Shown piece by piece: positions 3,152 through 11,028 of a stretch of DNA of 22,500 nt; the first letter of the stretch is position 1, and each line of letters opens with the position of its first letter. The notes beneath the pieces were generated by a model. That model had not been told where the DNA came from and did no database searches. It was given only the letters and a program-made list of their open reading frames with translations. The translations under genes were made by a program, and so were the position numbers. The DNA comes from Anaeromyces robustus (taxonomy: Eukaryota; Neocallimastigomycota; Neocallimastigomycetes; Neocallimastigales; Neocallimastigaceae): the NCBI GenBank assembly GCA_002104895.1, contig MCFG01000154.1, positions 27,501 to 50,000 of the forward strand, given 5' to 3'.

Positions 3152-5839
3152 TTAATTTTTAAAGTGATAATTTAACATTTTAATGTATGATGAAGAACCT
3201 TTAGATGTTGTGTTATCACTGCTATTATTAGATGATATTTGCTTATCATTAGATGAAAATTTTCCTAGATTTACGCTTCTAACTACCATTTCATCTTCTT
3301 CATTGTTATTAAGTAAGAAGAGAATTCTTATACCATAGAGAAGAATATAATTAGATAATCCTAGAAGTATATACATACTTGATCGAATTATATAAGTATC
3401 CAAATAGTTAAGCTTTAAGAATTTATCAACAATAATTACTAATGATGAAACAAGTAAAACTACAAATAAAGAAGTTGTAACTAATTTAACATCATATATA
3501 GTTGATGATATATTCCATTCTATAAACAATAAAAACAATAAACATAACAATGTTATAATTTTTATGAAAAGAATTACCAACAATATAAAAGTACCAAAAT
3601 TACTATTTAAACTACACACTTCATAATTTTTTCCTTCATGAACTAATATTTCTTTAACATCATAAGGTACATTTAGAAAAATTATACATATAATTGCATC
3701 TGACATAATAAATATATAATTAAACCAGAATCTATGATTTTTAATCCAAGTTATTATAAAATGTGTATCTTCTATGGGGACGTTAATTATTAATTTATAT
3801 AATATTGGAATATAAATCAATGTAAATCCTAACGATAACATTACAGGTCTTATTTGACATTTGAATTCGCTTTTTTTTCCTAATTCTAAAAATGATGTAA
3901 ACAAAAAGAAAACAATTCCAAATATAACAAGAAACCATGAATCTTTTGATAAAAATTTAAAATGTAATTCTAATTTTTTAATAAAGAGGAGGGTTAATGA
4001 TGCTATCATGAAAAATGATGAAATACAGATTATCAAAAAGAATATTAAACCAATTGAAGAATCTGAAAATAATGTTATATAATATATTTTTGTAATATTT
4101 TCAAGTTCAGATAATACTTGATATGCTGATTTTTCTCCAAATAAATATTCATAAATTTTATTTCTAAATTGTTCTGAATATGTACTATAATCGTCAGTTA
4201 CTGTAGTAGGTCTTGGAATTAATTGAATACTTTTATAAAAATCACAATCAACTTTTTCACATACTTCTTTTTCATCATATAAACTATTTATTAATGAAAA
4301 AACTTGTTTTTCTATAACTAATTTTCTTTGAAGATCTTTGGAAGTAATATATTTAAATGCATTAACTACTGCACTTCTTTTTTTTGAAGCTGAATATTTA
4401 CTAATAGCTAAATTATATCCACCAATTGTTGAACCTGAAATGCCTTCACGTATGCCAGGTAATGGTGATATTTTAATCATTGGATTAAATACTTGGGTAT
4501 GCCAATATTTTAAAAATACAAAGCTTGAAGGTTCTTGATAGAGTTTTTGTGCAAATATAAAATATGGAAGTTTAAAATGAGCCTCTTATATTATATTAAA
4601 AAAATAAATATAATTTTTTTAATAAAATGCAATATATATTGATAAGTCATATTAATACAAATACATCAATATATAGAAATAATAAAATAATATTATCTTA
4701 CCAGAAGATATTTCATTTTTTATTTCATTTATTTTTTCTAAAGCTTTTATTGAAACTTCATCTGTTAACTCGGGGAATGGTGATTCCCTTTTATTTCTGA
4801 ATGAGTATATAAATTCATAAAGTGAGCATGTTCCAACTTCTGTTTCTATATAAAGGAAACAATAATATATATGGAATTAATATAAAAAATTATTTAGTTT
4901 TTTTATTATAATATAATATATATTTATATGTCAATATTAATATTAATATGCTACCTCCAAAAGCTCCATTATAAATAATTAAATCATTATTGTTGAGTTT
5001 TTTTTCTTCTTCCATAATATACTTTCCAGTTTCTATTAATTCATCCCATGTCACTGGTACAGTTTTATTATATCTTTCTAAATATAATAAATTTGAATAT
5101 AAAACAGAATAATCTAATGTAATTGGCTTTTTTTTTTTTTTTAAAAAAAAAAAAAAATAAAAAAATAATATAAAAAATGTTGGTTTTATAAATTATTATT
5201 ATTTAATGTATTATATATATATTTATATATATATTTATTAATTTTATATTTTTTATAATTATGTATAAATATTTTTGATAATTACAAGTCCAACATATTC
5301 ACCATTATATGTACAAGATAATGATATTACATCTTTATTATATAAGTTAATATGCTCTTTATCTAATATTTTGTCTAATGATACAAAATGCTGTCCAAAT
5401 CTTGTTGAATATATATTGTCATAAAAATATAAATCATATTTTGTAGTTTTTTTTGTAAGAAGCTGTTCAACCATTGAACCATAATCATTGATATCACCCG
5501 TTGAATTTGATGGAGTAATTAGGTTTAATTTTAATGTAACATTTAAATTATTTTCTTTGGAATATTTATTAAATTCATTTACAATAAATGAGTATACTTC
5601 GCCACTGACATCATATGTAAAGGCTATGGCATCAATTGTAACACATTTACTAATCACTATGTTAAATTTATTAAAATATAATTGTAAATAATTCTAGTAT
5701 ATATAAATAATAGATAATAGTTTTATGTTTTTACTTTTTTTTATTTTTATTTTTTTCTAACATATATTTTATATAATTTATTTTATTTACTTATGTATAA
5801 AAGAGGAATTATGTAAAATATTATTTTATTTAATATCAT
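3152..5839 (-). CDS. Class C GPCR-like receptor with a solute-binding ectodomain (copy A)
   Basis: Rebuilt as five exons on the minus strand: 5791-5839, 5286-5656, 4955-5126, 4702-4845 and 3152-4584. This gives 722 residues with intron phases 1, 0, 1, 1. Exon 1 encodes a hydrophobic signal peptide (MILNKIIFYIIPLLYI) and its last base completes the next codon. Residues of about 18-415 resemble a bacterial family 1 extracellular solute-binding protein: a TYNGEYVGLP-ITLDYSVLYSN core, TWDELIETGKYI, then PLPG..EG.SGSTIGGYN and a late SLYDEK. From about 420 there are seven hydrophobic helices followed by a Ser/Asn-rich cytoplasmic tail. Cys488 at the start of helix 3 and Cys569 in extracellular loop 2 match the conserved class C disulfide. 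It should sit in the plasma membrane, bind a solute outside the cell and signal inward through a G protein. Ligand and coupling are inferred, not shown. It is divergent from, and paralogous to, the receptor at 8158. The frame at 5657 has no ATG of its own, which is why the upstream exon is needed. Confidence 0.88.
5127..5285 (-). other. Intron 2 of receptor copy A
   Basis: A phase 0 intron between ctt|gtaatt and the acceptor aaaag|ccaatt. Near the acceptor it holds a run of T followed by a run of A on the plus strand (about 5128-5157), which could fold back on itself. The matching intron of the paralog sits at the same codon boundary but is filled with a long AAT repeat, so position is conserved and sequence is not. 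Confidence 0.8.

Positions 5840-11028: not shown

Follow-up and report, generated by a model that had tools for sequence, protein, structure and literature searches.

Receptors that join a bacterial-type solute-binding domain to a class C seven-helix (7TM) domain have already been described from fungi. From transcriptomes of three species of anaerobic gut fungi, Seppälä et al. (2016; PMC5168858) reported 24, 32 and 51 class C G protein-coupled receptors (GPCRs), almost half of them with a type II solute-binding protein (SBP) domain that, as described there, resembles prokaryotic sugar-binding proteins and precedes a 7tm_3 domain, with neither an ANF nor a nine-cysteine domain. In another fungal phylum, eight Glutamate-family GPCRs of Allomyces macrogynus are described as the same fusion of SBP_bac_1 to 7tm_3 (Krishnan et al., 2012; PMC3251606). 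Co-culture with a methanogen was reported to raise class C receptor and SBP-homologue transcripts in Caecomyces churrovis grown on Avicel and xylan (2021; PMC8665504), and the Glutamate-like fungal class is named in a 2026 review as needing experimental validation (PMC13308352). Here we analyze 22,500 nucleotides of the gut fungus Anaeromyces robustus (assembly GCA_002104895.1, contig MCFG01000154.1, positions 27,501 to 50,000; hereafter the window), in which two neighboring genes, A and B, encode proteins of this kind. An earlier note, made from the sequence alone, had linked the two genes to published gut-fungal fusions, and rightly so: comparing by description, we found no difference in kind between A/B and the receptors of that transcriptomic work (PMC5168858). 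The pair adds further members to a receptor kind already described; what is new here is a genome-wide count, a rare head-to-head gene order, a map of pocket positions, and a conserved motif in the receptor tails.

Genes A (minus strand, 722 amino acids) and B (plus strand, 723 amino acids) each comprise five exons. All eight introns are of the GT-AG type, their phases (1, 0, 1, 1) are common to both genes, and the same introns were recovered when the protein of A was aligned on the DNA of B and the reverse, using a purpose-written spliced aligner. The two stop codons coincide with the ends of the interval 3152..11028. Because exon 5 is a single open frame in both genes, the fusion of the C-terminal part of the binding domain to the 7TM region is independent of splicing, and at the level of sequence the possibility that these two parts belong to separate genes is excluded. 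These models confirm the paired receptor genes, together with the fusion architecture and coordinates proposed in the earlier note. The features are as follows (window coordinates; signal peptides were judged by eye, and coordinates of juxtamembrane segments and tail motifs were derived by arithmetic from protein positions):

5791..5839, minus strand: gene A exon 1, start codon and signal-peptide-like hydrophobic stretch (sequence reading; GT donor, phase 1)
5286..5656, minus strand: gene A exon 2, N-terminal part of the binding domain (spliced model; 73% identical to the N-terminal part of B)
4955..5126, minus strand: gene A exon 3, binding domain with LPITLDYSVLYSN and TWDEL (spliced model)
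4702..4845, minus strand: gene A exon 4, binding domain (spliced model)
3152..4584, minus strand: gene A exon 5, a single open frame, stop included, that encodes the C-terminal portion of the binding domain, the 7TM region and the tail
4064..4237, minus strand: gene A juxtamembrane segment, C-terminal end of the binding-protein fold (aligned with the bacterial RP...Y...SE...L.G region)
3371..4054, minus strand (G000:C62:30871-31554): gene A 7tm_3 domain (E 4.1e-11 on DNA; protein scan E 6.5e-12)
3161..3181, minus strand: gene A tail motif KMLNYHF (family alignment and tail pattern)
5840..8157, no strand: intergenic region common to both start codons, 2,318 bp, holding an (ATAAA)55 array at 7050-7324
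8158..8209, plus strand: gene B exon 1, start codon and signal-peptide-like hydrophobic stretch
8322..8695, plus strand: gene B exon 2, N-terminal part of the binding domain (spliced model)
9062..9224, plus strand: gene B exon 3, binding domain with LPVTLDYTVLYSN and TWDEL (spliced model)
9317..9460, plus strand: gene B exon 4, binding domain (spliced model)
9590..11028, plus strand: gene B exon 5, a single open frame, stop included, that encodes the C-terminal portion of the binding domain, the 7TM region and the tail
9937..10110, plus strand: gene B juxtamembrane segment, residues 361-418, C-terminal end of the binding-protein fold (A/B identity 83%)
10111..10833, plus strand (G000:C62:37611-38333): gene B 7tm_3 domain (E 2.0e-13 on DNA; protein scan E 5.7e-14)
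10996..11016, plus strand: gene B tail motif KILNFHF (family alignment and tail pattern)

In Pfam searches, 7tm_3 was matched over nearly the whole domain and above the curated cut-off in both proteins (residues 424-649 of A and 419-659 of B), and solute-binding families were matched in B. The cysteines of helix 3 and loop 2 that the earlier note had pointed out (C487, at the start of helix 3, and C566, in extracellular loop 2; residue numbers here and below are those of B) are present in all 21 aligned receptors after removal of five alignment rows (L007, L008, L010, L011 and the truncated L028 copy), a conservation that does not in itself show the disulfide. Animal class C receptors (mGlu, CaSR, GABA-B) have the 7tm_3 domain and this cysteine pair in common with A and B, but are described as carrying a type I (ANF) flytrap and mostly a nine-cysteine domain (PMC5168858), neither of which was matched in A or B: Pfam returned no ANF_receptor match at E <= 1 and no NCD3G match. 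The conserved stretch before helix 1 (IQLIPRPTTVTDDY..YSEQF..KIYEYLFGE) aligns instead with the C-terminal end of the bacterial fold, indicating that the binding domain passes straight into helix 1; the segment is thus conserved, as had been noted, but is not a separate linker. G-alpha matches occur at 30 exon-level places in the genome, or about eight genes by grouping, and those on C534, C445, C16, C79, C679, C21, C545 and C223 form a possible partner set for the receptors.

The reading of the ectodomain as a family 1, sugar-type binding domain is carried by gene B, which exceeds the Pfam cut-offs for both SBP_bac_8 (E 5.6e-7; 30.1 vs. a cut-off of 27) and SBP_bac_1 (E 8e-7; 29.8 vs. 26), and by a family profile built from seven ectodomains (A, B, four paralogues, and a protein at locus L009 described below). 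Compared with solved structures, this profile best matched the trehalose/maltose-binding protein (TMBP) 1eu8 (E 7.7e-24, 323 profile positions), followed by 6jaz of the 6j9w/6jaz series (E 8.2e-23, 338 profile positions), SmoF (7nbz; E 2.8e-22) and MalE3; the nine sequences at E 1e-21 or better were 1eu8, SmoF, and seven 6j9w/6jaz variants. By its PDB title SmoF binds sulfoquinovosyl glycerol, and the 6j9w series is titled as an ABC transporter, periplasmic substrate-binding protein, which we take to be the Thermus alpha-glycoside-binding protein, although the titles do not say so. In ectodomain fold, judged by profile, and in aligned contact residues, 1eu8 and 6j9w/6jaz resemble A and B; they are, however, bacterial or archaeal transporter subunits, whereas the fungal domain adds a membrane domain and a CxxxxC motif (C353 and C358), which is kept in 21 of 21 receptors and was not seen in the aligned stretches of 1eu8 and 6j9w/6jaz.

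TMBP contacts trehalose through residues that include D70, D123, W257, W295 and R364 (residues of these kinds stand at chain indices one lower), and by profile alignment D98, D147 and W272 of B correspond to D70, D123 and W257. Four variants of the 6j9w series, which we infer were made as binding-site mutants, are altered at three places that align with B, namely Ala for an Arg of the N-lobe (Y77), Phe or Ala for the GGW Trp (Y301), and Ala for the SRP Arg (R369); the Arg aligned with R369 is Ala in one variant. Across 21 receptors (A, B, and 19 modeled relatives, with the partial L013_2772 and the divergent L009, L010 and L011 left out), D98, G299, G300 and R369 are invariant, while W272 is kept in 20 and D147 in 18. 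Position 301, that of the GGW Trp, is Tyr in A, B and 13 of the 21 overall, and neither Tyr nor Phe in seven, a variation that would fit a tuned specificity site. L010 and L011 keep D98, D147, W272 and R369, but not Y301. The L009 protein (L009:2857-4959; G000:C690:154943-156079) is intronless and 701 amino acids long, with the same binding domain (40% identical) joined to leucine-rich repeats and a C-terminal hydrophobic tail, without a 7TM region. Its pocket has Ile in place of D147, Ser for G299, Tyr for W272, Thr for Y301 and Pro for R369, leaving only D98 among D98, D147, W272, Y301 and R369, so that it may no longer bind the same ligand.

Whether such a pocket must hold a sugar can be weighed from the same alignments. 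The receptors might instead sense a non-sugar solute (an amino acid, a peptide, a plant phenolic, or a sulfoquinovose-type lipid product), the fold having been re-purposed, as could be argued from the rank of SmoF among the best profile matches, from the seven receptors with neither Tyr nor Phe at position 301, and from the low identity to known sugar-binding proteins. However, A and B both keep the residues that align with putative sugar contacts, and the named top solved relatives bind, by their titles, sugars or a sugar conjugate; we therefore regard a non-sugar ligand as unlikely.

The bacterial relatives of the domain are distant. A donor search with two peptide patterns over one genome per species (84,980 prokaryote species) returned 269 stretches, of which 61 were confirmed loci. 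Long bacterial matches are 21-29% identical, and values of 30-49% were reached only over stretches shorter than about 110 residues; the best long matches came from a Nitrospirales bin, from Clostridia (one titled Yak_Jejunum and several RUG bins, which are rumen genomes), and from Agrobacterium and its kin. None of the 61 confirmed loci is a close bacterial donor, although relatives lacking the two patterns would escape this search, and there is no sign of a recent bacterial donor in these sequence comparisons.

The two genes belong to a large family. In the 70.2 Mb genome (769 contigs), profile searches identified 127 7tm_3 places and, from 149 genome-search rows, 85 places with the C-terminal part of the binding domain. 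At 53 of these 85 places, a listed 7tm_3 match lay within 400 bases downstream, in the same frame in 52 of the 53. We inspected the upstream sequence of 58 of the 74 other 7tm_3 places (six of the remaining 16 already had loci), finding the lobe with the juxtamembrane segment at 37, the segment alone at two, the lobe alone at one, and neither at 18; the weak lobe match on C36 reflects the masking of most of that lobe. The other 32 binding-domain places have no listed 7tm_3 match; they include the leucine-rich-repeat protein on C690, and all eight that were fetched from the remaining 31 have a 7TM relative downstream, only partial in one case. The family thus numbers at least 98 places (53 + 37 + 8), one of them truncated, and this figure is a floor, since both genome searches score only the best candidates. 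Gene models were fitted to 23 loci. As in the window, 19 of these have introns at B142 (phase 0) and at B197 and B245 (phase 1). The model of L013_2772 covers only the part from residue 205 onward and includes the last intron; the aligned stretch of L010 and of L011 contains a single intron, and L009 has none. Common intron positions are best explained by a single ancestral fused gene.

Three further observations concern this family. A truncated receptor at L028:2182-2934 (G000:C346) consists of a 273-amino-acid frame with only the C-lobe of the binding domain and the first helices, and has the appearance of a pseudogene or of an incomplete model. In another group of 7tm_3 places (C343, C590:156099, C167, C168:256085, C109:92958, C764 and C40), the frames upstream show no binding domain but include a similar "..MEIRLLLP.." segment; the 7tm_3 matches there are partial, possibly because introns divide them. 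We dropped C101 and C36, with their very long frames, as candidates for the juxtamembrane segment on another ectodomain, their upstream stretches being masked and their frames artefactual; open-frame lengths above 1000 amino acids in the 7tm_3 listing are suspect for the same reason, masked DNA.

A and B group as sisters (support 1.0) in a tree built from 21 receptors. In the genome search, the part of A encoded by its last exon shares 66% identity with B, vs. 52% with the best other receptor. Identity between them falls from 71% in the ectodomain (388 aligned residues) to 51% in the 7TM region (241) and 36% in the tail (59), with only 20% over residues 660-708 of the family alignment. The stronger conservation of the ectodomain relative to the helices, as the earlier note had remarked, is therefore real but not special to the pair: family-wide identity is 46% in the C-lobe, 47% in the juxtamembrane segment, 35% in the 7TM region, and 20% in the tail. 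Ratios of nonsynonymous to synonymous divergence (dN/dS) between A and B are 0.45 for the ectodomain and 0.60 for the 7TM region. Because dS is itself lower in the ectodomain (0.41) than in the 7TM region (0.63), the likeness of the two ectodomains may reflect gene conversion and not selection for a single ligand. That one or both genes are decaying duplicates without a working receptor, in a family expanding and dying by tandem duplication, might be supposed from the strong expansion, from the existence of at least one truncated copy (L028), and from the long (ATA) array in intron 2 of gene B (window 8709-9030), but the frames are intact and the splice sites conserved in both genes, and dN/dS stays below 1 in both regions, making decay very improbable.

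The earlier suggestion that the two receptors have different ligands finds no support: at every putative sugar-contact position that was aligned (Y77, D98, D147, W272, Y301 and R369), A and B have the same residue, though ectodomain divergence peaks at residues 242-281 (30-40% identity), around the conserved W272, where specificity may have shifted. Their arrangement is unusual. Among adjacent binding-domain genes no more than 12 kb apart, 28 of 29 pairs are in tandem, and the sole head-to-head pair is that of the window; in a union list of 158 receptor places, the 51 adjacent pairs within 12 kb comprise 49 tandem, two divergent, and no convergent pairs, the other divergent pair lying at G000:C85:71159-77809. 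Since the head-to-head order is exceptional in the family, the pair is best read as an inverted duplication, which we consider its most likely origin, and the order says little about the co-regulation that had been suggested from it.

Between helix 7 and the C-terminus, the tails are of low complexity and very unlike one another, except for a stretch of the form K-[IL]-[LI]-[NSD]-Y-H-[YF] (in general form, K-[IL]-[LI]-x-Y-H-[YF]). The tails of A and B had been described as drifted, which holds for most of their length, but they end in a motif that is kept across most of the family. Tails were read at 123 of the 127 7tm_3 places; dropping 15 in which the 7tm_3 match stops early left 108, and dropping 14 shorter than 40 residues left 94. 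The loose pattern occurs in 77 of these, the strict pattern in 62, and either in 79, as compared with means of 0.52 (loose) and 0.34 (strict) in 300 shuffles of the same tails, although, with patterns chosen post hoc and genes that are related, the shuffles measure composition only. Either pattern is present in 45 of 51 listed binding-domain receptors with tails of at least 40 residues, and in 31 of the 37 receptors found by upstream inspection of 7tm_3 places. In six-frame translations of the window and loci L001-L128 (168,145 residues), the full pattern was matched 62 times (61 distinct), 56 of them in listed receptor tails, five in tails of aligned receptors, and one in a 43-codon frame just 3' of the L025 receptor; because this DNA was preselected for receptors, the result demonstrates a low background rather than genome-wide specificity. 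A codon test on the six core codons in the 79 tails gave a pN of 0.24 and a pS of 0.40, with codon bias too strong for the comparison to be decisive. Narrow literature searches found no earlier description of the motif, and the words "tail," "cluster" and "tandem" are absent from the main text, supplements excluded, of Seppälä et al. (2016; PMC5168858). The motif may link most of the receptors to a common signaling partner.

The motif also bears on whether the 7TM region signals at all. Were it a mere anchor, the proteins would be sugar co-receptors or sequestering proteins, for which there are parallels in the L009 protein, with its binding domain on a leucine-rich repeat and a hydrophobic tail but no 7TM, and in the sequestering role that Seppälä et al. 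proposed for isolated SBPs (PMC5168858). The conserved class C helices, the cysteine pair, and the motif in the cytoplasmic tail argue for a function inside the cell, and we consider an anchor-only role improbable.

We thus favor, as the probable reading of these sequences, that A and B are sisters within an extensive surface-receptor family of an AT-rich gut fungus, in which a sugar-type flytrap would drive a class C 7TM domain. The outer, type II Venus-flytrap domain, of the family 1 trehalose/maltose-like kind, would most likely close on a sugar or a short oligosaccharide. Its C-terminal helices, which continue into helix 1 with no cysteine-rich spacer in between (GABA-B receptors likewise lack one), would be pulled by this closure. 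The 7TM region would then signal through a heterotrimeric G protein, through a partner docking on the K-[IL]-[LI]-x-Y-H-[YF] motif, or both. Several points weigh against this. Gene A alone matches only SBP_bac_1, at E 0.0013 and below the Pfam cut-off (19.3 vs. 26), so that the assignment of its ectodomain, 71% identical to that of B, leans on B and on the family profile. The sugar-contact positions are putative, being drawn from low-identity alignments, and a direct profile alignment to TMBP is shifted by two residues at R369. An AlphaFold model of exon 5, made from an alignment of A and B only, is unreliable (mean predicted local distance difference test score, pLDDT, 43.7; predicted template modeling score, pTM, 0.33) and was not used, nor do we rely on its rendering of the tail motif as helical. 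Against the generality of the motif, 15 of the 94 tails contain neither pattern: those of C350, C132 and C612 (three of the four top-scoring 7tm_3 genes, the fourth, C267, having too short a tail), that of C94, and those of eleven members of the binding-domain family, in some of which near-misses such as MLDHHYLT occur. Taken as a whole, the interpretation in the earlier note is partly supported.

Elsewhere in the window are a class I/II aminotransferase reading frame of 519 amino acids (663-2222, plus strand; Pfam E 3e-48) and eight stretches of Pumilio-family RNA-binding repeats (16344-17294, minus strand; Pfam E 3e-91), the latter probably a piece of a longer gene.

For scale, the at least 98 places with SBP ectodomains in this one genome can be set beside a total of 918 Glutamate-class receptors in a survey of 1,357 fungal species, which applied stricter criteria (PMC12842992). 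We tentatively envisage a repertoire of about 100 sugar-type receptors, comparable to odorant receptors, in which varied pockets (for instance at Y301 and residues 242-281) and one docking motif displayed by most members might allow many sugars to be read via one shared intracellular partner. Anaerobic gut fungi are strong degraders of plant fiber, and with pocket positions mapped and a common tail motif in hand, their sensing becomes approachable by ligand screens of ectodomains and by pull-down with tail peptides.

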